In this document: in pieces, positions 2,735-25,691 of the stretch
Position numbering within the stretch: position 1 is the stretch's first letter
How the letters are laid out: every line of letters begins with the position of its first letter
Assembly (NCBI RefSeq): GCF_000264455.2
Contig: NC_017966.1
Span: 62,001-126,000 of the forward strand
From: Tistrella mobilis KA081020-065
GTDB lineage: Bacteria; Pseudomonadota; Alphaproteobacteria; Tistrellales; Tistrellaceae
DNA length: 64,000 bases
Direction: 5' to 3'
Translations under genes and position numbers: made by a program
Notes under the pieces: model-generated
The model's database searches: none
Told to the model about the DNA's origin: nothing
What the model saw: only the letters and a program-made list of their open reading frames with translations

Positions 2735-3673
2735 TCAGGCAGCCGGATCATCTCGGGCGGTGGGGCGCGGCGCGGGCAGCAGGTTCCGCCGCCGCGCCTC
2801 GGCCAGGAACCAGCGGCGGAAGGCGGCGACGCCGTTCTGGCTCATGAAGGCTTCCGGGCAGCACATGTAGAAGCCTTCGCCTGAAGAGCAGCGCTGGGGG
2901 AAGGCGGGCTTCAGCCGGCCGTCGGCCAGTTCGGCCAGGACATAGCTTTCCGGCACCACCGCCAGCCCCATACCGGCGATCGCCGCCTCGATGATCATGT
3001 CGGTGACCGAGAAGCGCGGCCCCAGGATCGGCCCGGTGAACGGGATGTCGGCCGCGCGCAGCCAGTGCATCCACAGGCTCGGCCGCGAGACGTTCTGGAT
3101 CAGGGTGATCCGCCGCAGATCGTCTTCGGCGAGGAAGCCTTGGGCCGGCAGCAGGGCCGGGGCGCCGACCACCACGAGGTCTTCTTCAAACAGCAGATGG
3201 CTGCGGCAGGCGGCCCAGTTGCCCACACCGCGCAGGAAGAACAGATTGGCGTCGAAATCCGCCGGATCCTGGGTATTGGGGCAGGCCACCACCTCGAACA
3301 GGATCTCGGGCTCGGCATGTGCGAAATGTTTCAGCACCGGCAGGGCCCAGCGCCGTGCCAATGTGGGTGACATGCCGATGCGCAGGAAGTCTTCGGTGGT
3401 CCGGCCGCGCACCGCATCGATGGAGACTTCCTCCATCCGGTCGAGCAGATGCGAGATTTCTTCGTAATAGGCCCGGCCGGCTGCGGTCAGGATGATGCGC
3501 GGGCCGGCGCGTTCGAACAGGGTGACGCCCAGAAACTCTTCCAGATTGCGGATCTGGCGGCTGATGCCGCTCTGGGTGACGCACAGATCCTCGGCCGCCT
3601 TGGTAAAGCTCAGATAGCGCACCGCCGCATCGAAGGCGTGGAGGGCAGACAGGCTGGGCAGGAAGCGGCGCAA
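2735..3673 (-). CDS. LysR-family transcriptional regulator, GcvA-like
   Basis: A 312-residue LysR protein. The N-terminal winged helix-turn-helix (about residues 7-65) carries the GcvA-type sequence LSALHAFDAAVRYLSFTKAAEDL followed by VTQSGISRQIRNLE. The rest is the periplasmic-binding-protein-like effector domain. It ends 12 bases after the convergent ThDP gene and starts 16 bases downstream of the NTF2-like gene, on the same strand. GcvA-like regulators often control amino-acid oxidation genes, so the convergent FAD oxidase and ThDP enzyme are possible targets; this is inference. The effector is unknown. Confidence 0.9.
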   Translation of the reverse strand: MRRFLPSLSALHAFDAAVRYLSFTKAAEDLCVTQSGISRQIRNLEEFLGVTLFERAGPRIILTAAGRAYYEEISHLLDRMEEVSIDAVRGRTTEDFLRIGMSPTLARRWALPVLKHFAHAEPEILFEVVACPNTQDPADFDANLFFLRGVGNWAACRSHLLFEEDLVVVGAPALLPAQGFLAEDDLRRITLIQNVSRPSLWMHWLRAADIPFTGPILGPRFSVTDMIIEAAIAGMGLAVVPESYVLAELADGRLKPAFPQRCSSGEGFYMCCPEAFMSQNGVAAFRRWFLAEARRRNLLPAPRPTARDDPAA

Positions 3674-3688
3674 GCTCGTCTCCGGCGG

Positions 3689-4126
3689 TCAGAACCCGGC
3701 CGGGCCGGGTATCGGTGCACCGACCGGTGCCACCACCAGCCGGCCGATGCCGTCGGCCGCCAGCGTGAAGCGCAGCAGAATGACCACCGGGTCGGGCAGG
3801 CCGGTCGGGTCGAAATCGCCCGCCACCGCCACCCTGACCGCAACCTCCGCCCCGGCTTCCTGCCAGTCGATCGGGGTGAAGCGCAGGCGGATGGCGAAGA
3901 TCTCGTGCGCCGCCCAGGCGCCGATCGACGGCCGGCCATGGATCAGCCGGTCGCCCCGGACCACCTCGGCGCCTTCGGTGAACAGCTGGCGGAAACTGTC
4001 GAAATCATCCTCGTTCACGGCCTCGATCCAGTCGAGGACAAGGGGCGTCGCCAGGTTGGACAGGCGGGACATCAGCGGTGCATCGGGCATGACGGTCGGT
4101 CCGGGCAGCGATCGGTTTCGTGGCAT
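3689..4126 (-). CDS. NTF2/SnoaL-like small protein
   Basis: The recognisable part starts with SNLATPLVLDWIEAVNEDD and continues with a cone-shaped alpha+beta pattern typical of NTF2-like (SnoaL/ketosteroid isomerase fold) proteins. No catalytic residue set identifies a reaction. The start is uncertain: candidates are 4180, 4126, 4090 and 4072, and none has its own ribosome-binding site. I chose 4126 because it lies two bases after the stop of a very well initiated eight-codon ORF and could be translated by re-initiation, giving 145 residues. The LysR gene follows after 16 bases. The function is unknown; homologues act as isomerases, hydratases or ligand-binding subunits. Confidence 0.65.
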   Translation of the reverse strand: MPRNRSLPGPTVMPDAPLMSRLSNLATPLVLDWIEAVNEDDFDSFRQLFTEGAEVVRGDRLIHGRPSIGAWAAHEIFAIRLRFTPIDWQEAGAEVAVRVAVAGDFDPTGLPDPVVILLRFTLAADGIGRLVVAPVGAPIPGPAGF

Positions 4127-4128
4127 GG

Positions 4129-4191
4129 TCACATCTGATGGACGTGGACGGACATGATGCCGGTCACCTCCTGACGACATTCCGTCAGGAG
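4129..4191 (-). promoter_or_regulatory. Leader with SD-containing hairpin and 8-codon upstream ORF
   Basis: On the minus strand a nine-base perfect inverted repeat (4183-4191 and 4168-4176, six-base loop) is followed by the Shine-Dalgarno sequence AGGAGGTGA (4172-4164), which shares five bases with the 3' arm. Eight bases later an ATG (4155) opens an eight-codon ORF, MSVHVHQM, whose TGA (4131-4129) is two bases before the ATG of the NTF2-like gene. If the hairpin forms, the best ribosome-binding site is masked. This looks like a translational switch with re-initiation. The sequence facts are direct; the function is inference. Confidence 0.5.
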
Positions 4192-4327
4192 CCGGACAAA
4201 AACCGCGATCCGCCCCGCATGATGCAGCGATGATCGGGCCGGCGGCGCTCAGGTGATTGGCTGTTTCCCCCCAGCCGGTAAGCCTGCGCCTGCGTGGGTG
4301 ATCACGTCAAGACCGGTCTTCGATGTT

Positions 4328-5350
4328 TCACGTTGCAGTCCGCACGATCCTGGCCACCAGCCCGTGCAGCTCGTCGACATAGCCGGTGCGCCCGGATGGC
4401 GTGTCGGGGTCCGAGGTGATCACGACGACCATGTCGATGCCGGGCAGCAGATAGAGCAGCTGGCCGCCATAGCCCCAGCCATAGACCGCCGGCCGGACGC
4501 CCGTCTCACGCAGGAACCAGCCATAGCCATAGGCATCGCCGGTGAAGGGCGAGGTGGTGCGGGGCGTCCACATCTCGCGGATCCACCCCTCCGACACCAG
4601 CCGGGTTCCGTCTGCCGCAACCCCGCCCCGGCGGAGCATCTCGCCGATGGCAAGCAGGGCGCGGGGCGACAGCACCATCTGGTTGCCGCCCATATAGACG
4701 CCCTGCGGATCGCGGGTCCAGGGCGGGATGGTGATGTCGAGCGGATCCCCCAGCCAGTCGCGGGCCAGCGCCAGCGTGCTCTCGCCGCTGGTGCGGGTCA
4801 GGATCGCCGACAGCAGATGCGAATTGCCGGTGGAATAGAGCATCCGCCCGCCGGGCTCCGCCACGAAGGGCCGGGAGAGCGCCGTGCGCACCCAGTTCCG
4901 GCTTTCGACCCAGGCGCCGTAATAGGGGCCGGAGGTCCGCTCCAGCCCGGCCTGCATCGACAGAAGATGGCCGATGGTCAGCCGGTCCAGCCGCGGATCG
5001 GGATCATCCGGCAGGTCGGCGGGCAGCAGGTCCGCCACTTTCTGATCCGTGCCGGTCAGCACGCCCCGATCGATCGCGATGCCGGTGAGCAGGGCGATGA
5101 TGCTTTTCGACAGCGATTTGACGTTCACCGGTCGCGTGGCCGGCGGGCCGCGATAGACCCGTTCGGCCAGAACCTCGCCCGCCTGCGCCACGATCAGCGT
5201 GTGCAGGCCGGTCAGGTGCCGGGCATCGTCGAGCAGCCGGTCGAGCGCGGGCGCCGCCGCCCGCCCGGCCCGCGGGGCGATGGCGGTGACGGCGGCGAGC
5301 GCGAGGCCGCCGGTGATCAGCCGGCGGCGGGAGGGCAGATATCCGGTCAT
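4328..5350 (-). CDS. Tat-exported serine hydrolase (beta-lactamase / class C-like family)
   Basis: This 340-residue protein begins with a twin-arginine signal (SRRRLITGG followed by an Ala-rich hydrophobic core ending near AGRAAAPA), so it should be exported folded. The penicillin-binding-type active site is visible: SxxK in KSLSKS (about residue 80) and a YSTGN motif in LYSTGNSHLL, corresponding to the Tyr-x-Asn element of class C beta-lactamases and EstB-type esterases. Known relatives are esterases or D,D-peptidases rather than true resistance enzymes, and the substrate cannot be assigned. An open frame extends upstream into catB, but ATG 5350 at the Tat signal is clearly the start. It lies 54 bases downstream of catB and after a strong hairpin. 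Confidence 0.85.
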   Translation of the reverse strand: MTGYLPSRRRLITGGLALAAVTAIAPRAGRAAAPALDRLLDDARHLTGLHTLIVAQAGEVLAERVYRGPPATRPVNVKSLSKSIIALLTGIAIDRGVLTGTDQKVADLLPADLPDDPDPRLDRLTIGHLLSMQAGLERTSGPYYGAWVESRNWVRTALSRPFVAEPGGRMLYSTGNSHLLSAILTRTSGESTLALARDWLGDPLDITIPPWTRDPQGVYMGGNQMVLSPRALLAIGEMLRRGGVAADGTRLVSEGWIREMWTPRTTSPFTGDAYGYGWFLRETGVRPAVYGWGYGGQLLYLLPGIDMVVVITSDPDTPSGRTGYVDELHGLVARIVRTAT

Positions 5351-5367
5351 GGAACTGGAGTTGGGGC

Positions 5368-5397
5368 GATGCCCGGCCGGATCAACGGCCGGGCATC
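5368..5397 (-). terminator. 12-bp perfect GC hairpin between catB and the serine hydrolase
   Basis: A perfect 12-bp inverted repeat (5368-5379 with 5386-5397, six-base loop GATCAA on the plus strand) lies just after the catB stop codon and before the next start. There is no T tract on either side, so it is not a classical intrinsic terminator. It may attenuate read-through or protect the 3' end of the catB message. Confidence 0.45.
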
Positions 5398-5403
5398 CTG
5401 TGG

Positions 5404-6054
5404 TCACGCCTGGCGTGTGTTTCGCCACAAGCCGTAGAGCCCCGCCACATCGCCCGAGCAGAGCAGCGGCATGGCCTGCCGGATCTCGTCCAGTGGCCAG
5501 TCCCACCACGCCATCTCCAGCAGCATGGCGACGGCATGCTCGTCGAAGCGCTGCCGCACCGGCCGGGCCGGATTGCCGGCGACGATGGTGTAGGGGGCGA
5601 CGTCGCGGGTCACCACCGCGCGGGTTGCGATCACCGCGCCATGGCCGATGGTGATGCCCGGCATGATCACCGCTTCGGCACCGATCCAGACATCGCTGCC
5701 GACCACCGTATCGCCCGCCGGCCGGTAGCCGTTCTCCGCCCCGGCGAAGGCGGGTTCCCCCGTCCACCAGAAGAAGGGGAAGGTGGAGACCCAGTCGGCG
5801 CGGTGGCCCTGATTGCCGGCCATGATGAAGGCGGCACCCGTGCCGATGGAGCAGAACGAGCCGATGATCAGCCGGTCGACATCATCGCGATCGGGCACCA
5901 GATAGCGGGCGCAATGGTCGAAGCCATGGCCATGATACCAGCCGGAATAATAGCTGAACCGGCCGGCCGTGATGTTGGGGTTGGTGATCTGGTCGCGGAT
6001 CTCGCGGCCCTTGAACGGGCTCTCGAAGGCATTGGTCAGAAAGGGTGTGGTCAT
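5404..6054 (-). CDS. catB: CatB/Vat-type xenobiotic (chloramphenicol) acetyltransferase
   Basis: The protein (216 residues from ATG 6054) follows the CatB hexapeptide-repeat acetyltransferase family almost block for block: [10 protein letters not shown], the long stretch [43 protein letters not shown] containing the catalytic His, [15 protein letters not shown] in the left-handed beta helix, and [21 protein letters not shown] at the C-terminus. These enzymes are cytosolic trimers that transfer acetyl from acetyl-CoA to chloramphenicol or related hydroxyl groups. The start at 6054 is chosen by family length; an in-frame ATG at 6096 would add 14 residues that do not look like the family. Chromosomal copies of this type are common, so clinical-level resistance should not be assumed. 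Codon use matches its neighbours, with no mobile-element signature nearby. Confidence 0.92.
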
Positions 6055-6234
6055 TGATTGAGCATTCCGCTGCGCGTCGTCCTGTATTTCCGCCATGCGC
6101 CGGGCATGACGATAGGACAGCCTTGAACGATATGTTCAGGCTGGAAACAGGTTCGCGCTGGGTCTGGCGGCCATGATGCTCATGGGGCGGGATGTTAGGT
6201 CAGCGGCCATGCCGGGGCAAGGCTTTCCCGCCCG

Positions 6235-7656
6235 TCAGACCAGCCGCCGGATCGGGCGCTTCTTCCAGATCAGGTGATAGAGCGCCGACTGCCCCGCCGC
6301 CAGCAGGCAGAAGGCGACCGGGTACGACATCCACACCCCTTCGATGCCGATCCGCGCCGACAGCGCCCAGCCGACCGGCAGGCCGATGGCGAGAATGGCG
6401 GTGCCCGAGACCAGGGTCGGCAGCAGCACCATGCCGCTGGCCCGCATCAGGCTGGAGGTGGCCATGCCCATGCCATAGATCACCAGCGCCCAGACCACGA
6501 TGTGCAACAGGGTGCGGGCTTCCGCGACCACGGCCGGGTCGGCCAGGAACAGGCCGAGCAGGGGGCCTGAAAACGCATAGACCAGCGCCACCAGACTGCC
6601 GGTCAGCACGAGGTTGAAGGTGAGCGCGGTGCGCAGGATTTCGGACAGCCGGTCGGTGCGCCCGGCACCGATCGCCTGGGCGCCGAAGATCGAGGCGGTG
6701 ATGCCGATCGAGATCGCCGGGAACTGGACATAGTTCACGATCTGGGTGATCGCGCCATAGGATGCGGTCGCATCCGAGCCGAAGCGGTTGACCAGCGACA
6801 GGATCAGGATTTCGGAAAGCGAGATCAGCACCAGCATGATGCCGGTGGGCAGGCCGATGCGCAGCACCTTGGCGAGCAGCACGCGGTTGAAGCCGAGCGC
6901 GCGCAGGAACGCGCCATCCGGCGCCAGCGGATGGTTGCGGCGGCGCAGATGGATCACCATCCAGGTGGTGGCGATGGTCATGGAGACGATCGAGGCCCAG
7001 GCCGGCGAGGTGACCCCCATCTGCGGCAGCCCGGCCCAGCCGCGGATCAGCGCCGGGGTCAGCACCATGCCGATCAGCGTGGCGAGGCCAAGGGTGAAGA
7101 GCGGCGTGATCGTGTCGCCCACGCCCCGCAGCATGGATGTCGCGAGCAGATAGAGGAAGATGCCGGGGGTTGCGATCAGCATGATCCGCGCATAGGCCAC
7201 CGCCTGCGGCAACACATCGGGCGGCGTGCCCAGCAGGCTGAGGATCGCGGTGGTGGCCGTGCCTCCGAAGATGGCCACCAGCAGCCCGGCCGCCACCACC
7301 ACGCTCAGCGTCGTGGCCGCGATCGCCTTGATCTGCCCGGTCTCGCCGGCACCGAAGGCCTGCCCGATCAACACCGCCGCGCCTGCGCCCAGCCCGATGA
7401 TCAGCGAGATCATGAAGAACATCAGCGGAAAATACGACGTCACCGCCGCCAGCGCCGACACCCCCAGCATCTGCCCGACATAGATGTTGTTGAGGCTGCC
7501 CGACGCCGCCTGCAGCAGATTGCTGCCGATCATCGGCACCAGAAACGCCAGATAGGGCTTCCACAACGGCTGTACCGGCGCCTTGGGCGAGAAGGGCGAC
7601 ACCCGCGGCTTGCCACGGCCGGCCGGCGCCGGAGAACGGGGGGAGGGGGCAGACAT
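6235..7656 (-). CDS. MATE-family multidrug/sodium antiporter
   Basis: A 473-residue inner-membrane protein with twelve hydrophobic segments in two repeats, the usual MATE length. Family features include the first-helix PMIGSNLLQAASGSLNNIYVG and the later FGAQAIGAGRTDR cytoplasmic loop motif. It would exchange cationic compounds for Na+ or H+. CGGAG is placed about nine bases before ATG 7656. The first 30 residues are Pro/Ser/Arg-rich and probably cytoplasmic. It is a single gene, diverging from the RND pump genes, with 274 bases between them. The substrate is unknown. Confidence 0.93.
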   Translation of the reverse strand: MSAPSPRSPAPAGRGKPRVSPFSPKAPVQPLWKPYLAFLVPMIGSNLLQAASGSLNNIYVGQMLGVSALAAVTSYFPLMFFMISLIIGLGAGAAVLIGQAFGAGETGQIKAIAATTLSVVVAAGLLVAIFGGTATTAILSLLGTPPDVLPQAVAYARIMLIATPGIFLYLLATSMLRGVGDTITPLFTLGLATLIGMVLTPALIRGWAGLPQMGVTSPAWASIVSMTIATTWMVIHLRRRNHPLAPDGAFLRALGFNRVLLAKVLRIGLPTGIMLVLISLSEILILSLVNRFGSDATASYGAITQIVNYVQFPAISIGITASIFGAQAIGAGRTDRLSEILRTALTFNLVLTGSLVALVYAFSGPLLGLFLADPAVVAEARTLLHIVVWALVIYGMGMATSSLMRASGMVLLPTLVSGTAILAIGLPVGWALSARIGIEGVWMSYPVAFCLLAAGQSALYHLIWKKRPIRRLV

Positions 7657-12242: not shown

Positions 12243-12596
12243 TCAGGCAGGCTCGTTGGTGTGGCCGGTTTCCCCTGACACCCACTTCTCCATCACCACC
12301 CGCGGCACCGCCTGATACCCCACCTTTTCATAAAACGCCTTCACCGCCGTATTCGTCTCGCGGATCATCAGCAGCACCTTGCGCACGCCGTGGCGGCGCA
12401 GCCAGTCTTCGCCGGCGGTGACGATGTCGGTGCCGAGGCCCTGCTGGCGGCAGGTCGGGTCGACGGCGACGTAATAGAGCCAGCCGCGGTGGCCGTCATG
12501 GCCGGCCATGACCGAGGCGACCAGCCGGCCGTCGAGCCGGCCCGCCAGCACCTCGGAATGGGAGCGGCCGCGCGCGAAGGCGATGTCGTCCAGCGG
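12243..12596 (-). pseudogene. 5'-truncated duplicate of the GNAT acetyltransferase gene
   Basis: This fragment encodes the C-terminal two-thirds of a GNAT acetyltransferase, including the acetyl-CoA loop RQQGLGTD and the ending AFYEKVGYQAVPRVVMEKW. It is a near copy of the intact gene at 16055-16513, aligned without gaps from 12287 to 12596, then the homology stops abruptly where an IS481 remnant begins. The N-terminal part is missing, and the C-terminus was changed to a different tail (VSGETGHTNEPA). An internal ATG at 12551 leaves 102 residues open, but without the first strands of the fold it is unlikely to work. Confidence 0.85.
12287..12596. repeat. 310-bp direct repeat, copy 1
   Basis: Pairs with 16066-16375 at a constant offset of 3779 bases without gaps. 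The copies differ at scattered positions (for example GCCTGATACC versus GCGTTATACC), so the duplication is not recent. The repeat bounds the AT-rich island and its IS remnants. Confidence 0.9.
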
Positions 12597-13314: not shown

Positions 13315-13354
13315 TTGACGAGGTGTCTTCTAACTGCTAATGATTCTCATTATC
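13315..13354 (+). promoter_or_regulatory. Promoter with Fur box for the AT-rich island operon
   Basis: GCTAATGATTCTCATTATC (13336-13354) matches the classical 19-bp Fur box at 16 of 19 positions and contains the perfect inverted repeat TAATGA-TTC-TCATTA. A possible -35 (TTGACG, 13315) with an 18-base spacer puts a -10-like AATGAT at 13339-13344 inside the box, so a bound Fur protein would block RNA polymerase. The first gene begins 45 bases downstream. The motif is read directly; iron repression is inferred from it. Between the IS end at 13131 and this promoter (about 180 bases) I see nothing else. Confidence 0.75.
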
Positions 13355-13369
13355 AAAATGGAGCGGAGA

Positions 13370-13402
13370 ATGTCTGATAACCATCTGGAGCAAAGCGGAT
13401 GA
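13370..13402 (+). CDS. 10-codon leader ORF overlapping the next start
   Basis: ATG 13370 is preceded by GGAGCGGAGA, a good ribosome-binding site, and encodes MSDNHLEQSG. Its TGA overlaps the ATG of the 72-residue gene (ATGA at 13399-13402). The overlap and the strong initiation site suggest that it sets translation of the operon by coupling. No amino-acid run suggests classical attenuation. It may also be chance. Confidence 0.35.
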   Translation: MSDNHLEQSG

Positions 13403-13617
13403 AACCCGGCACAGCCGAGGCGGCACTGCGCGTCTGCATGATCGGGCTCCCCGCCACCTGCGCCGTTTTCGGCGGCAGCATCATCCTTGACCATCTGGCT
13501 GATCTTGGCAGGCCCGAATGGCAGCAGGCGCTCGTCTCCATCACTGCAGGGGCTGTAATCGGTGGAGTCGTGGGATTCCTATTGGTGATTGTGAAGAAAT
13601 TTATGATCAAGGACTAA
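13399..13617 (+). CDS. Small two-helix membrane protein of unknown function
   Basis: The 72-residue product has two hydrophobic segments, about residues 10-32 and 43-64, separated by a short polar loop, and a basic tail (VKKFMIKD). This gives a holin-like topology with both ends probably cytoplasmic. GGAG lies eight bases before the ATG. It is the first substantial gene after the Fur box and ends five bases before the barrel gene, so it belongs to the same operon. I do not recognise a family. Its base composition is closer to the chromosome than that of the next three genes, so the junction of foreign DNA may lie within or after it. Confidence 0.6.
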   Translation: MKPGTAEAALRVCMIGLPATCAVFGGSIILDHLADLGRPEWQQALVSITAGAVIGGVVGFLLVIVKKFMIKD

Positions 13618-13621
13618 TCGT

Positions 13622-14551
13622 ATGATCACCAGAGATTATGGGCTGCATCGACTTCATATTTGTATGGCATTATTATTGGCGGCGATATTCATATCAATTT
13701 CCAATTCATCTGAAGCCTCGCAAATTTCGAAGAACTCGGCAAAAGAGAATAGGAATATTGTTGAAATAGAAGATTTTTTGCCGGGTACGGGAGATGTCAC
13801 AGTCTCAATAGGGGCAGATTTTTCTTATTTGAACCAGGACTCGAACACGTTCGCATTCGGGCTTGCGCCACAAGGTAACGTGATAACACTCGTCCCCTTC
13901 TCAGTTCCGTCAAATCGCCAGACTTATTCGTTTTCCGCCGCAGCAGCAGTGACCTATGGAATCACCGAAAGATTATCACTCGGGGCACGCATACGAGGAA
14001 CGGCCGAGTTTACTGAGATCCAGACAGGCGGCCACTACACAAAAAGAGACGATAAATATGAAATATCTGACATTTCCCTAACTGGAAATTACAAAATTAC
14101 ACCCATCACAGAGAGTCCTTATTATTATATATTTGGAGAATATCGATTTCTGGAAATGGAAGATGATGTATCTATCGGTCACTCTTATGCCTTTGGCGCA
14201 GGCATCGGATGGCTGGAAGATCCTATTCTCATTTCTCTGGGACTCGCCTTCTCCTCGGTGGATGTCCGAGATCCAGAATCTTCTCTGAATTTCTCTGGGC
14301 GGTACATGATGGCATTTCCAGCAATAGCCTTCTCTGTCAACGAAAAGATCAATCTGACGTCCGGTGTGAGCCTTGGGTACATGCTCGACGACATGCCACA
14401 CGGCGCAGGAGGATCATCGTTTAGCAGCGCCATGGCCTTCGGGCTCTCCTACCGCATGAGCCGCCAGACGGCGTTGAATCTCAACACCCGTTTTGGCTTG
14501 GCGGATAACGAGAGTGTCGGCATGCATGGCACGTGGATTTATAGGTTCTGA
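13622..14551 (+). CDS. Outer-membrane beta-barrel protein, transporter-like
   Basis: This 309-residue protein has a signal peptide (hydrophobic stretch MALLLAAIFISISNSS, cleavage probable near residue 33), then alternating amphipathic strands rich in aromatic and Gly/Ser residues, and it ends in TWIYRF. A terminal Phe with aromatic residues at alternating positions is the outer-membrane insertion signal of beta-barrels. Repeated turns such as NEKINLTSGVSLGYMLDDM and RQTALNLNTRFGLADNE resemble the porin-like 'MetA-pathway' and FapF-type barrels, but I cannot assign a family with certainty. It is clearly more AT-rich than the surrounding chromosome. Together with the C39 peptidase downstream it may export the glycine-zipper protein encoded next. 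Confidence 0.7.
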   Translation: MITRDYGLHRLHICMALLLAAIFISISNSSEASQISKNSAKENRNIVEIEDFLPGTGDVTVSIGADFSYLNQDSNTFAFGLAPQGNVITLVPFSVPSNRQTYSFSAAAAVTYGITERLSLGARIRGTAEFTEIQTGGHYTKRDDKYEISDISLTGNYKITPITESPYYYIFGEYRFLEMEDDVSIGHSYAFGAGIGWLEDPILISLGLAFSSVDVRDPESSLNFSGRYMMAFPAIAFSVNEKINLTSGVSLGYMLDDMPHGAGGSSFSSAMAFGLSYRMSRQTALNLNTRFGLADNESVGMHGTWIYRF

Positions 14552-14563
14552 AAGGAGAATAGC

Positions 14564-15004
14564 ATGAGGAAGCTACGGGCAATCTCTGGAATAGTGGTCC
14601 TGTTGTCGATCATGATCCACCCGGCATTTGCGTTGGAACAAGATCAGTCAGCAAAAATATTTGGACCGAAACACCGAGAACTCTACACTCGCGAATTAAC
14701 AGAAGAAGAGCGTAAAAACATAACAGGAGCGATCCACCCAGTCATTATAGCGGTCGGGTGGGCCGCGGGCGCCGGAGGGGCAAGCATCGTCTATCAGTAT
14801 GCCGCCAATGGTCAGGTCGACTGGTGGGAAGTAGCCACCAACGCTACGGGGGCCTTCGTCGGAGCACTTACCGGCGGAGCCCTGACTCCGTATATCGGAC
14901 AAGTCGGCTCCGCCGTAGTAGGCGGAGCAGCAGGAATGATATCTTATTATGGAATGAATAATCATATGAACATCGGTTCTGTGTGCTCCACATGCCACCA
15001 GTGA
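14564..15004 (+). CDS. Secreted glycine-zipper protein ending in CxxCH
   Basis: The 146-residue product has a Sec signal (residues 1-23, cleavage after HPAFA), a charged helix (REL-TRELTEEERKN, residues 38-52), then two hydrophobic glycine-zipper segments: G65xxxG69, and G96xxxG100xxxG104 ... G120xxxG124. Such patterns occur in membrane-inserting peptides, class IIb bacteriocin-like proteins and amyloid-type fibre subunits. The last six residues, CSTCHQ, contain C141-S-T-C144-H145, the canonical haem c attachment motif. The ribosome-binding site AAAGGAG is seven bases before the ATG. It lies between a barrel and an exported C39 peptidase in an operon with a Fur box. It is probably the exported substrate of this system. 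The family is not recognised. Confidence 0.65.
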   Translation: MRKLRAISGIVVLLSIMIHPAFALEQDQSAKIFGPKHRELYTRELTEEERKNITGAIHPVIIAVGWAAGAGGASIVYQYAANGQVDWWEVATNATGAFVGALTGGALTPYIGQVGSAVVGGAAGMISYYGMNNHMNIGSVCSTCHQ

Positions 15005-15015
15005 TTGCGGACGAG

Positions 15016-15606
15016 ATGATCAGATATTACGCTTTATCGGTTCTGGTATTTTCTGTGCCCACAGATGTTTTGGCACAGGAAGCCACATTTCCATTTTTTC
15101 CGGGAGAGGTGATCAAGCCATTCAATATTCAGAAGTATAACAAAATAACGACACAAGTATTTGATAGCTCCTGCGGGGCAGCTTCGGTTGCAAACATAAT
15201 CAGCGAATACTACAGGATACCGACAAATGAACTGGTAATTCTAGCAAACATGAATATACATGGGGATAGATCCGAGTATTCATTTGAAGATCTAAGATAT
15301 GGGGTTGAATTTCACAATCTAACGCCCGTATACGTCGCGACTAATTATGAGGCACTTCTGGAGCTCAAGATTCCAGTGATCGCACATCTACGATTGCTTG
15401 ACGGTAATCACTTTTCTGTAATAAGAGCTGTCACTGAAAATTACATATTTTTAGCTGATCCCGCCTGGGGGAATGTAAAATTGACGCGCACACAATTCGA
15501 AGAGAAATGGTTGAGTGATACAAATGAAGGTCATATCATGGCTATAATTTCTGAAAACAACATAAACACTTCTGATGAATATTTCGGTCTAAAAAAATAT
15601 CGATAA
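15016..15606 (+). CDS. Exported C39-like cysteine peptidase (FapD-like), not fused to an ABC transporter
   Basis: This 196-residue protein has a short signal peptide (MIRYYALSVLVFSVPTDVLA) and a complete C39 active site: oxyanion Gln47 and nucleophile Cys53 in QVFDSSCGAAS, catalytic His in GNHFSVIRA, and Asp in LADPAWG. C39 domains usually sit on ABC exporters and cut double-glycine leaders in the cytoplasm. Stand-alone periplasmic forms are known from functional-amyloid (FapD) systems. I placed the start at ATG 15016, 12 bases after the previous stop, because this gives a proper signal peptide; ATG 14983 would overlap the upstream gene and add 11 polar residues. Its likely partner is the glycine-zipper protein immediately upstream. 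Strong AT bias supports horizontal origin. Confidence 0.75.
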   Translation: MIRYYALSVLVFSVPTDVLAQEATFPFFPGEVIKPFNIQKYNKITTQVFDSSCGAASVANIISEYYRIPTNELVILANMNIHGDRSEYSFEDLRYGVEFHNLTPVYVATNYEALLELKIPVIAHLRLLDGNHFSVIRAVTENYIFLADPAWGNVKLTRTQFEEKWLSDTNEGHIMAIISENNINTSDEYFGLKKYR

Positions 15607-16031: not shown

Positions 16032-16054
16032 GGACCGACCGGTCTGGCCCCCCC

Positions 16055-16513
16055 TCACAACCACCTCTCCATCACCACCCGCGGCACCGCGTTATACCCC
16101 ACCTTTTCATAAAACGCCTTCACCGCCGTATTCGTCTCGCGGATCATCAGCAGTACCTTGCGCACGCCGTGGCGGCGCAGCCAGTCTTCGCCGGCGGTGA
16201 CGATGTCGGTGCCGAGGCCCTGCTGGCGGCAGGTCGGGTCGACGGCGACGTAATAGAGCCAGCCGCGGTGGCCGTCATGGCCGGCCATGACCGAGGCGAC
16301 CGGCCGGCCGTCCAGCCGCCCGACCAGCACCTCGGAATGCGAACGGCCGCGGGCGAAGGCGATGTCGTCCAGCGGGTCGTTATAGGGCATCACCAGATTG
16401 CAGGCCTGCCACAGCGCCACCAGCGCCGGCAGTTCGGCATCGTGGACGGGGCCCACCGTCAGGCGGGGCCGGTCGGGCCGGTCGTCGGGATCGGTGGCAT
16501 CGGTGCTGTCCAT
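16055..16513 (-). CDS. GNAT-family N-acetyltransferase (YpeA-like)
   Basis: A 152-residue cytosolic acetyltransferase. The GNAT fold is complete: the strand/helix start LTVGPVHDAELPALVALWQAC, the acetyl-CoA loop with the R/QxxGxG/A pattern in CRQQGLGTD, and the C-terminal FYEKVGY motif. ATG 16513 is chosen because AAAGGA stands nine bases upstream; the open frame extends further to 16720 but without a ribosome-binding site. It is the parent of the truncated copy at 12243-12596. The start region contains an unusual Asp/Pro/Arg-rich tract (DSTDATDPDDRPDRPR). The substrate is unknown; YpeA-like proteins have no firmly assigned role. Confidence 0.88.
   Translation of the reverse strand: MDSTDATDPDDRPDRPRLTVGPVHDAELPALVALWQACNLVMPYNDPLDDIAFARGRSHSEVLVGRLDGRPVASVMAGHDGHRGWLYYVAVDPTCRQQGLGTDIVTAGEDWLRRHGVRKVLLMIRETNTAVKAFYEKVGYNAVPRVVMERWL
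16066..16375. repeat. 310-bp direct repeat, copy 2
   Basis: Lies inside the intact GNAT gene and matches 12287-12596. The match ends at CAGCGG (16370-16375), exactly where copy 1 joins IS481 remnant A. Confidence 0.9.
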
Positions 16514-22395: not shown

Positions 22396-22433
22396 CCCCT
22401 ACGCCCGATGATGCCCCCTACGCCCGATGATGC
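22396..22433 (-). repeat. 19-bp tandem duplication at the 3' end of the AraC gene
   Basis: CCCCTACGCCCGATGATGC is repeated exactly twice. Read on the minus strand it contains the last four codons (His-His-Arg-Ala) and the TAG stop of the AraC regulator, so the stop codon and its context are duplicated just past the gene. Confidence 0.9.
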
Positions 22434-23298
22434 TTCGGGGGCAGGCCGTAGGTCTTCTTGAACGCGGCGGTGAAGCTGGTCGGGCTGGTATAGCCGGCGA
22501 TCCAGGCCGCCTGGGCGATCGGCACGCCGTCGCGTTCAAGGGCCGCCCGGGCGGCCTCCAGCCGCTTCAGGCGGATGAATTCATAGACCGTCATTCCCAG
22601 ATGTTCCTTGAAATGGCGCTGGATCGACGAGGTGCTGAGGCCCATTTCGCGGGCGATGCCCTCGACGGTCAGCGGCCGGCCCAGATTCTCAAGAATATGG
22701 TCGTGGATGCGGGCGATCTGCCGGCGGCTCATCTCCACCGGTTTCGGCGTATCGTCGCCGGTGGCGTCCAGCATCTGCAGGCAGGCTTCGCACATCAATT
22801 GCAGGGCGTGCGACTTGCGATAAAGCGTGCGCAATTCGCCCTGCATCGGCACCGGCGGTTCCAGAATGCGTTCGGCAAGCTGGATCAGCGCCGGCCGGGC
22901 TCGAAGCTGAACCGGTTCAGATGGCCGGCGAAGAAGCGGCGCAGCGCCGGCATGCCGTTTTCGGGGCAGCTGCGCATCAGATCCTGCATCCAGGGCAGGG
23001 GCGCTGAGACCATCACCTTGCGCATCGCCACATCGCTGTCGTTCACGAAGCGGACCAGGCAGGGCCGGGCGACGTTGAGCAGGAAGACCTGCGGCACCGA
23101 GATGTCGGAATCGCCGGCATCCAGGCGGAAATGCTCGCCATCCATCACGAAATGCTGCGCGCCCTGCAACAGCACGATGACCATGAATTTCGGCCAGACC
23201 TGATGCAGCTCCTCGTCGGGCGTGCAGGTCGCAAGGCCGGTCATCGTGCCGACGAACAGGTCATGTGGAATGCCCAGGGCGGGCGCAGTTTCCTGCAT
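22418..23298 (-). pseudogene. AraC-family regulator (PchR-like) split by a one-base frameshift
   Basis: Two adjacent frames make one gene. The first (23298-22885) encodes a cupin-like sensor part ending SFEPGRR; the second carries ALIQLAERILEPP, then the regulator's two helix-turn-helix units (PLTVEGIAREMGLSTSSIQRHFKEHLG and AQAAWIAGYTSPTSFTAAFKKTYG). The second frame is open through the junction, so adding one C in the GGCCGG run near 22893 would restore a continuous protein of about 293 residues. It adjoins a TonB receptor gene and is divergent from it, like PchR-type siderophore-sensing activators. Either it is a fresh inactivating mutation or an assembly error. The DNA-binding part could be made separately from ATG 22852. 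Confidence 0.8.
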
Positions 23299-23428
23299 GT
23301 GAACACCTTGATCACGCTTGGGTCGGGTCAGGTGTCCTCACGACGCTGCCATCGTGCCTGCGCAGGTCTTTGCCGCTTTTGAAGAGGTCATGTCGCACGA
23401 CAGCGCCGACACCCTAGCCCTAAACATC

Positions 23429-23447
23429 GGAAAGTCAATGGACTTCC
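23429..23447. promoter_or_regulatory. Inverted repeat upstream of the TonB receptor, possible AraC operator
   Basis: GGAAAGTC-AATG-GACTTCC is a near-perfect inverted repeat 52 bases before the receptor start, in the spacer between the AraC gene and the receptor. It could be the activator's site. I see no convincing Fur box in this spacer (23299-23498). Confidence 0.35.
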
Positions 23448-23498
23448 ACCGCCCTGGCAGGGGGCGGAGGGGTGTTCGCGTATGTCGGAGAAAAACAT

Positions 23499-25691
23499 AT
23501 GGCACGCATGGCGTATCGGGCAGGCGCGGGAAAATGGGCGTTTTCCGTGTCCTGGGCAGCACTTCTGGCCGCAGGGCCGGCCGTGGCGGAAGACGCGGTC
23601 CGGCTGGACGTCCTGAAGGTTGAAGAACGGGCGACCGAGAACGGCACCGGCCCGGTCGGCGGCTATGTCGCCCGGCAGAGCCGGACCGGTACCAAGAGCG
23701 ATACGCCGATCGCAAAAACGCCGCAGAGCGTGTCGGTCGTCAGCCGGGAACAGATGCAGGCCCAGCAGGTCGAAAGCGTCGCTGAGGCGCTGCGCTACAC
23801 CCCGGGTGTCTTTGCCGAATATCGTGGCGCGTCCAATCTGCGCGATGAGATCTTCGTTCGCGGCTTCTATTACGTGCCGAAATATCTCGACGGGCTGTTC
23901 CTGGGCGGCGACCTCTCTTACGCCAAGATCGAGCCCTATCTGCTGGAACGGGTGGAAATGCTTGCCGGCCCGTCCTCGGTGCTCTACGGCCAGGCCAATC
24001 CGGGCGGGCTGGTCAACATGGTCAGCAAGACGCCGACCGATATGCCCCTCTACGAAACCGAGGTCTCGATCGGCACCGGCAATCACTACGGCGCCGCCTT
24101 CGACCTGTCGGACCGGCTGACGACCGATGGCCGCTGGGCCGGCCGGCTGGCCGTCACCGGGCTCAATCGCGATCTTCAGGAAGACGGCGCCGAACGCCGC
24201 GCCTTCGCGGTGGCGCCCTCGCTGCGCTGGACCGATCACGAGACCACCAGCCTCACCATCCTCGGCGGCTATCAGAACGAGCCCGATGCCGGCTATCGCA
24301 ACTTCCTGGATGCGGCCGGCACCATCGTGCCGATCCCGGGCTATGGCTATGTCCCCCGCGACTTCTTCGTCTCCGATACCGGTTTCGAGAAGTTCGAGCG
24401 CGAACAGCTCTGGATCGGCTATCAGCTGGAGCATGCGGTCTCGGATGCGCTGACCCTGCGCCAGAATGCCCGCTATCATCAGGTCGAGACCACGCATCAT
24501 ACCCTGATCTATGGCAGCGCCAGTGCCAGCCCGACCACCGGGGCCGCCACCATCTACAGTCGCAGCCTGACCGGCGGGGCCGACGACTGGCGGCAGTTCG
24601 CGATCGACAACCAGGCCGAATACCGCTTCGGCACCGGTGCGGCGGCCCATACCCTGCTGGCCGGCCTGGACTATCGCCACCGCACCCGCGACTACATCTG
24701 GGGCCGCAACCGCAATGTGCCGTCGATCGATGTCGCCAATCCGGTCTATGGCAATTTCGACTTCTCCTCTCTGGACCTCACCACAACCGATGATCAGGAT
24801 CTGACGGCGGAACAGTTCGGGCTCTATCTGCAGGACCAGATCGAGATCGACGGTTTCAGCCTGCTGGCCGGTCTGCGGTATGATCGCGCCTCGACCGATA
24901 TCGACGACAACTTCAACGACCTGTCCTATTCCTACGACGACAATGCGCTGACCTGGCGGGTGGGGGCGCTCTACACCTTCGATAACGGCATCGCGCCCTA
25001 CGTCTCGTATTCGACCTCGTTCGAACCGTCGCTTTACGCCCCCGAAGCGGGGCAGCCGGCCTTCGACCCCACCACCGCCCGGCAGGTCGAACTCGGCGTC
25101 AAATACGCGCCCGAGGGGACCGGCCTGCTGCTGACCGCCGCGGTCTATGATCTGCGCCAGAAGGATGTGGTGATGAGCGCCTGGGATCCCGACCTCGGCC
25201 GGTCGGTCTATTCCCAGGTCGGCGAGGTCCATAATCAGGGGCTGGAGCTGTCGGCGAAGGCTGAACTGGACGAGCACCTCTCGATGGTGGCGAGCTATTC
25301 CTATATCGACTCGACCATAGAGGACTCGGTGACCGCCGCCGAGATCGGCCGGACGCCGGCGCGGGTGCCTGCCCATACCGCGTCGCTCTGGGCCGATTAC
25401 CGATTCACCGACGGTGCCGTGCAGGGGCTGGGTCTTGGCGCGGGCGTGCGCTATATCGGCACCAGCCAGGGCAACAACACCAATGACTTCGAGGTGCCGG
25501 CCGTGACCCTGTTCGATGCCTCGGCCAGCTATGATTTTTCGGCCCTGGGCGGCAGCTGGCAGGGCGTGTCGGTGCAGGTCAACGCCAAGAACCTGACCGA
25601 CGAGACCTATGTCGCCTCCTGCGCCAGTGCCTATGCCTGCTTCTATGGCGAAGGGCGGACGGTGGTCGCGACCCTGAAGAAGCGCTGGTGA
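23499..25691 (+). CDS. TonB-dependent siderophore receptor (FhuE/FpvA/FoxA type)
   Basis: This 730-residue outer-membrane receptor has a signal peptide, a plug domain (TPQSVSVVSREQMQAQQVESVAEALRYTPGVF; FVRGF; YGQANPGGLVNMVSKTP) and a 22-strand barrel ending in VVATLKKRW, the terminal aromatic insertion signal. The plug sequence style is that of ferric hydroxamate/mixed siderophore receptors. I chose ATG 23499 because GGAG lies nine bases before it; a frame start at 23472 would add residues before the signal peptide. The N-terminus is too short for a signalling (FecA-type) domain, so regulation probably comes from the divergent AraC gene. An esterase gene follows directly, fitting ester-linked (catecholate) or hydroxamate siderophore use. 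Confidence 0.95.
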   Translation: MARMAYRAGAGKWAFSVSWAALLAAGPAVAEDAVRLDVLKVEERATENGTGPVGGYVARQSRTGTKSDTPIAKTPQSVSVVSREQMQAQQVESVAEALRYTPGVFAEYRGASNLRDEIFVRGFYYVPKYLDGLFLGGDLSYAKIEPYLLERVEMLAGPSSVLYGQANPGGLVNMVSKTPTDMPLYETEVSIGTGNHYGAAFDLSDRLTTDGRWAGRLAVTGLNRDLQEDGAERRAFAVAPSLRWTDHETTSLTILGGYQNEPDAGYRNFLDAAGTIVPIPGYGYVPRDFFVSDTGFEKFEREQLWIGYQLEHAVSDALTLRQNARYHQVETTHHTLIYGSASASPTTGAATIYSRSLTGGADDWRQFAIDNQAEYRFGTGAAAHTLLAGLDYRHRTRDYIWGRNRNVPSIDVANPVYGNFDFSSLDLTTTDDQDLTAEQFGLYLQDQIEIDGFSLLAGLRYDRASTDIDDNFNDLSYSYDDNALTWRVGALYTFDNGIAPYVSYSTSFEPSLYAPEAGQPAFDPTTARQVELGVKYAPEGTGLLLTAAVYDLRQKDVVMSAWDPDLGRSVYSQVGEVHNQGLELSAKAELDEHLSMVASYSYIDSTIEDSVTAAEIGRTPARVPAHTASLWADYRFTDGAVQGLGLGAGVRYIGTSQGNNTNDFEVPAVTLFDASASYDFSALGGSWQGVSVQVNAKNLTDETYVASCASAYACFYGEGRTVVATLKKRW

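Follow-up and report, generated by a model that had tools for sequence, protein, structure and literature searches.

Locus organization

The window analyzed here, a 64-kb stretch of Tistrella mobilis KA081020-065 (contig NC_017966.1, positions 62,001 to 126,000), contains a tight same-strand operon encoding, in this order, a 72-amino-acid (aa) protein, a 309-aa barrel, a 146-aa peptide precursor and a C39 peptidase (Table 1). The precursor gene is the subject of this analysis. Its product ends in NIGSVCSTCHQ, with CSTCHQ as the final six residues, and carries GxxxG repeats at residues 65–69, 96–100–104 and 120–124. The initial annotation had described a small glycine-zipper open reading frame (ORF) with this terminus and with repeats at exactly these positions, and that description was borne out. 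No family in Pfam or NCBIfam matched the 146-aa peptide above cut-off, and neither collection revealed a cytochrome c domain; identity as a true cytochrome was rejected for lack of such a match. An anti-phage system was likewise rejected, as PADLOC gave no match.

Table 1. Features of the precursor operon and its flanks (window coordinates)
Feature	Position	Strand	Basis or remark
Duplicated GNAT gene fragment, left flank	12272..12596		325 bp, 95.7% identical to 16051–16375
Fur box GCTAATGATTCTCATTATC	13336..13354	+	16/19 versus consensus GATAATGATAATCATTATC
10-codon ORF MSDNHLEQSG, possible leader peptide	13370..13402	+	stop overlaps next start (ATGA); same codons in L080
72-aa protein, two hydrophobic segments, candidate immunity protein	13399..13617	+	hydropathy; identical in G002
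FapF-like 12-strand outer-membrane barrel, candidate polypeptide exporter	13622..14551	+	Pfam PF13557, E=2e-5; model
Bacteriocin-like glycine-zipper peptide precursor	14564..15004	+	146 aa; sequence and alignment
Predicted Sec signal peptide, residues 1–23	14564..14632	+	judged by eye; end set from AFA motif
GG-type pro-leader, residues 24–56, ending LTEEERKNITGA	14633..14731	+	predicted C39 cut after A56
Predicted mature peptide with GxxxG segments, residues 57–146	14732..15001	+	sequence
Stand-alone C39 peptidase	14983..15606	+	PF03412, E=6e-17; alignment; sequence
C-terminal CSTCH motif (C141, C144, H145)	14984..14998	+	invariant columns, six distinct peptides
Matching stretch in intact GNAT gene, right flank	16051..16375		collinear in G001 and G002

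The N-terminus of the precursor is built in two parts, a Sec signal followed by a charged leader ending in LTEEERKNITGA, and residues 24–56 are therefore expected to be cut off. Within this leader, E49 (position −8) and G55 (position −2) are invariant in the alignment of all six peptides of the operon branch defined below. The charged N-terminal helix that had been assigned to the mature protein thus falls within the predicted leader. As judged from its sequence, the 146-aa protein is a predicted Sec-exported pre-peptide with a double-glycine-type (GG/GA) leader, and the mature product is probably a 90-residue hydrophobic glycine-zipper peptide comprising residues 57–146. If the protein is a GG-leader bacteriocin-like precursor, its glycine zippers, its C39 neighbor and the Fur control described below are accounted for.

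The barrel and the C39 peptidase named as neighbors in the initial annotation are both real. The barrel was modeled from a folding alignment built from the window protein and the rows of the genome search. The model has 12 strands (predicted local distance difference test score, pLDDT, 67), and the FapF entries 5o67 and 5o65 are its top matches in the PDB (E about 1e-12, template-modeling score about 0.6). The barrel also aligns with HmcD and is, on this modeling, a candidate FapF-type polypeptide exporter. The C39 ORF is open from GTG at 14983 and encodes 207 aa, of which residues 54–176 are spanned by PF03412, with no ABC domain; its start is probably ATG at 15016, giving the enzyme its own signal peptide. 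The expected active-site features are present, including the catalytic Cys (SSCGAAS), the His (GNHFSV) and DPAWG. The peptidase falls outside the FapD equivalog, scoring 55 bits against that model's cut-off of 330. Cdz-type contact-dependent glycine-zipper systems require a dedicated type I exporter; none is encoded in this operon, and that candidate was rejected.

Conservation of the terminal CxxCH

Homology searches with the peptide alone returned nothing useful among plasmids, IMG/VR or GTDB contigs (a 3-sequence alignment was used for the contigs), and only marginal, chance-like matches among 385 Alphaproteobacteria (E 0.002–0.01). The barrel motif EDFLPxKxxWT, run as a degenerate DNA pattern against GTDB contigs, gave four matches in unrelated phyla, which were judged random. 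Relatives were found with the C39 peptidase and a barrel profile as probes. A tblastn search with the peptidase recovered plasmid operons of the same layout, including the hemocin plasmid p250 of Avibacterium. Among these operons, a branch was defined by a barrel N-terminus of the [IV]EDF[LF]P type; its operons come from E. coli plasmids of three kinds, a plasmid of Vibrio and a Burkholderia-like genome, whose barrel reads IDDFAP.

All six distinct branch peptides carry C-x2/3-C-H at or near the C-terminus, with both Cys and the His as invariant columns, and the relatives are 21–28% identical to the window protein. The canonical CxxCH occurs in the window peptide and four of its five relatives, and CxxxCH in the remaining one. 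The Vibrio coralliilyticus peptide ends in ACGSCHVSN and the E. coli MSB1_4I peptide in NKCTQCH; pSCU-387-3 ends in QKCTSCH, with near-copies in pN51a, AF3 and AF10. The initial annotation had regarded homologues without the two cysteines as the mark of an accidental motif; no such intact homologue was found in the same branch. In the C39 tree, the CxxCH operons lie together on one side. Support for this split when set against all rows is low (51/86), and a single origin is therefore not claimed. The peptide cores vary: two E. coli alleles are 43% identical in the core, as against 93–100% in signal and leader, and the mature E. coli relatives are longer than the window peptide (about 150 versus 90 residues).

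Fur box and probable Fur control

A Fur box had been proposed for the operon, and the site is real: it is the best-scoring one in the window, where the next best matches 13/19 positions. When the 400 bp upstream were simulated 500 times with matched composition, no simulation reached a score of 16. A sibling genome (G002) has GATAATGATTCTCATTATC at the same place, matching 17/19 positions. Elsewhere in the branch, the E. coli operons score 16/19 (pSCU-111-4) and 17/19 (the others), again with no simulation out of 500 as good. Two operons of a branch whose peptides end in Cx6C have borderline scores (12–13/19), and the regions upstream of the hemocin (Avibacterium), Campylobacter and L053 operons score at chance level. 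Separately, an AraC-type regulator gene lies divergent from a TonB-dependent siderophore-receptor-like gene at 22418–25691, about 7 kb from the island that holds the operon; this is probably an unrelated iron-uptake locus.

A probable acquired island with a candidate immunity gene

The guanine-plus-cytosine content of the operon is about 0.30–0.55, compared with 0.61–0.72 in its surroundings. A duplicated GNAT gene end and an IS481/IS3-type transposase fragment flank the operon, which therefore looks like an acquired island. In the same-species genome G001, no match to the peptide was found, and a different gene adjoins the GNAT gene. The sibling genome G002 (L080, 1427–1984) retains the front of the island: the Fur box, the 10-codon ORF and an identical 72-aa protein. 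Of its barrel gene only about 30 codons remain before transposase genes follow, and the peptide and peptidase genes are gone. The 72-aa gene differs from that of the window at only 2 of 219 nucleotides, both synonymous, whereas divergence across the full 559-bp match is about 5%; this suggests selection. Retention of an immunity gene once its toxin is lost is the usual explanation for such a pattern, and we describe the G002 locus as an orphan immunity-like locus.

A parallel is seen on E. coli F plasmids. The E. coli locus, used as query, matched 466 of 5426 E. coli genomes, and most matches among those listed cover only the stretch between peptide and peptidase. On pUTI89 (L030, 5001–5975), a scar of the peptide tail, EKEITNKCTQCH followed by a stop, accompanies small membrane ORFs with no intact toxin; in this and other E. 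coli F plasmids, the scar is a degenerate copy of the CTQCH tail. These toxin scars parallel the toxin loss in G002, where the immunity-like gene was kept.

Proposed function and alternative readings

With moderate confidence, we read the gene as encoding a bacteriocin-like precursor akin to those of the hemocin and Nap systems; its peptide would be exported by way of Sec, a C39 peptidase and a barrel of the FapF type. The computed features behind this reading are the operon anatomy, the leader pattern, the barrel fold match, the Fur box, the conserved tail and the retention of the 72-aa gene. The same layout, with GG-leader peptides, is found in E. coli, Vibrio and the Burkholderia-like genome, and in the known bacteriocin hemocin.

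From these features we infer killing activity, an order of processing, immunity, haem attachment and a receptor, as follows. Iron starvation would lead Fur to release the operon, and Sec would move the precursor into the periplasm. The stand-alone C39 peptidase would then cut the GG-type leader after ITGA, the FapF-like barrel would let the 90-residue glycine-zipper peptide out, and the 72-aa membrane protein would protect the producer. The terminal CxxCH would be a functional module, most likely for modification and/or receptor targeting, in a position that corresponds to the uptake determinant of class II microcins. Haem c, attached covalently in the periplasm by the cytochrome c maturation (Ccm) system, would turn the product into an iron-linked Trojan-horse bacteriocin.

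The Ccm system recognizes CxxCH motifs that follow a Sec signal. In E. coli, a flexible haem tag at the C-terminus of a Sec-exported protein has been matured (PMC6962350), and CcmE is present in both hosts tested (G000 and G568). Because the placement of the window motif suits Ccm, a C-terminal haem tag has a precedent and CcmE is available, covalent haem c is our leading candidate for the tail chemistry, although we advance it only tentatively. Haem would also fit the Fur box and the invariance of the His. The initial annotation had offered binding of haem or metal, or a disulfide, and each of these may apply; an iron-linked tag other than haem is also conceivable. Receptor use by class II microcins is determined by their last 11–32 residues, and in siderophore microcins the C-terminus is modified (PMC10233263). 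It is conceivable, and we put it forward with reserve, that a haem c tag is added before FapF-type export and that uptake proceeds through the haem/iron receptors of competitors under Fur control, making the peptide a haem counterpart of the siderophore microcins. In the open-access literature, no paper was found that joins bacteriocins with CXXCH or c-type haem.

Several observations weigh against the bacteriocin reading or its haem component. Structure prediction for the window peptide is poor (pLDDT 47). The Fur box of the Vibrio operon is weak (14/19, equaled in 11 of 500 simulations), and none was found upstream of the Burkholderia-like G568 operon. The tail itself varies: the pSCU-111-4 peptide ends in NNCQSSCH, a CxxxCH spacing that is not the canonical haem motif, and in the G568 peptide GCSGCH is followed by 28 more residues. 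The sister operons in G755, G786 and G792 (L041–L043) encode peptides ending in KCGAAGLAC, a Cx6C arrangement without His. The CxxxCH member and this sister branch call for caution on haem.

In a second view of the chemistry, the bacteriocin is as proposed and carries no haem; the two Cys would form a C-terminal disulfide and, as known from peptides of the microcin V type, stabilize a loop that binds the receptor. The variable Cys spacing would suit a disulfide, the His-free Cx6C ending suggests one in the sister branch, and both the periplasm and the exterior are oxidizing; disulfides may also occur in class IIa microcins (PMC10233263). The His directly after the second Cys would be dispensable for a plain disulfide, however, and it is kept in six of six divergent peptides. 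We regard the disulfide-only version as the main rival to haem, and as somewhat less probable.

The tail might instead be a recognition tag read during export by the branch's own barrel or C39 peptidase. It does track one barrel/C39 branch, and the conserved CxxC of FapC, which lies outside the fiber core of a protein exported via FapF, keeps this idea alive (PMC6173800). The initial annotation had listed such a tag among its options, but as a universal signal it is unlikely: the sister peptides end in Cx6C, and wider cousins with similar barrels of the IEDLLT type and similar peptidases (L053, L055 and L067) export GG-leader glycine-zipper cargo without Cys. The tail is thus one branch's module rather than a general export signal, and the leader already serves the peptidase. 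We consider the branch-specific version improbable as well.

A further alternative holds that the operon is not antibacterial, the peptide acting on the producer population by programmed lysis, as in Neisseria Nap, or building a Fap-like surface structure. In its favor, and against killing of competitors, Nap peptides promote autolysis without detectable killing of competitors (PMC11798529), and FapF-type barrels export amyloid subunits (PMC5557850). Set against this are the survival of the immunity-like gene in G002, which has lost the toxin, the E. coli plasmid scars with their small membrane ORFs, the absence of an amyloid-repeat protein (FapB/C) from the operon genes, and cores that diversified behind a constant leader, a bacteriocin-like pattern. 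Together they make a non-antibacterial role improbable. Finally, although no family model matches the peptide and homologues are few, conservation of C-x2/3-C-H at or near the C-terminus in all six distinct branch members leads us to reject an accidental, functionless motif as exceedingly unlikely.

The favored bacteriocin reading sets out a small branch of bacteriocin-like peptides exported by the FapF/C39 route, which is open to testing and is found on E. coli plasmids from people. Its C-terminal CxxCH is among the very few features common to all members, which are mostly under Fur control. A haem-bearing tail would represent a new construction of Trojan-horse antibacterial; because export passes through the periplasm, cytochrome c maturation would then be linked to bacterial competition. 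Even with a disulfide only, the branch offers candidate functions for operons that carry only the label "hypothetical protein", as well as a natural substrate for stand-alone C39 peptidases of the periplasm, few of which have established targets.

Relation to known systems

The window system is of the hemocin/Nap kind; the terminal CxxCH conserved in its branch and the Fur control of most members set it apart as a variant. The hemocin locus (Haemophilus/Avibacterium hmc, L012) shares with it the barrel (HmcD), a stand-alone C39 peptidase, a peptide with Sec signal and GG leader, and an immunity gene, for which the window has a candidate. It differs in that hemocin has two CxxC pairs inside its core but lacks a terminal CxxCH, an ATPase gene belongs to the hmc locus, and no Fur box was found upstream of the Avibacterium locus. 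The Neisseria nap island (NapF, NapP, NapA–C, NapI) likewise combines a FapF-like channel, a periplasmic C39 peptidase and GG-leader bacteriocin-like peptides in a low-GC acquired island; Naps, however, are cationic and reported to promote autolysis, and a conserved CxxCH tail or Fur box is unreported for them (PMC11798529).

Fap systems share the 12-strand FapF-type barrel and the periplasmic C39 peptidase, and FapC has a conserved CxxC (PMC6173800). FapF and the periplasmic C39 protein FapD, including its active-site Cys, are required for polypeptide export, and Fap proteins lack canonical C39 sites (PMC5557850). By contrast, the window cargo has a GG-type leader, and the operon is without amyloid repeats and FapA/B/C/E genes.

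The predicted product shows two marks of class II microcins, a double-glycine leader and a core below 10 kDa (90-residue mature peptide). Siderophore microcins are under Fur control and have a Ser/Gly-rich siderophore site, whereas the window tail is CxxCH; its C-terminal CSTCHQ is not Ser/Gly-rich, and no siderophore-linking genes were found in the operon. Class II microcins (MccV; H47, M and E492) resemble the window peptide in their GG/GA leader, small hydrophobic core, C-terminal uptake module and iron-linked targeting (PMC10233263). They differ in export, which runs through a type I secretion system of peptidase-containing ABC transporter, membrane fusion protein and TolC. No genes for these components were found within the window operon; a barrel and a stand-alone C39 peptidase are there instead, for a route by Sec and through the periplasm. 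Pectocins M are ferredoxin–bacteriocin fusions that carry an iron cofactor domain and parasitize iron uptake. They are large proteins with an N-terminal [2Fe-2S] domain and no homology to the window peptide.

Other barrel-route loci

Additional loci came to light alongside the branch. On pIncF-MU4 (L018, 3405–4679) and in L019, a truncated glycine-zipper peptide remnant ending in NGQSSCH immediately precedes a colicin-like ORF of the coiled-coil/pore-domain type and an immunity gene of the E1 type; it looks like a recombined bacteriocin locus. GG-leader proteins with toxin-like C-termini bearing PHYH, THYH or THFH motifs were seen in N. gonorrhoeae (L044, 4847–5386), Acinetobacter (L011, 3298–3765) and L070 (reverse strand, 5240–5857), and the barrel-type route may export several kinds of toxin. 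A complete hemocin-like locus with barrel, peptide, immunity, ATPase and C39 genes is present outside Pasteurellaceae, in a Burkholderia-like family (L079 of G1475, reverse strand, 3483–6487). Campylobacter plasmids (L022, L025 and L026) carry an HmcD-like barrel and a C39 peptidase together with divergently encoded GG-leader (VKGG) proteins.
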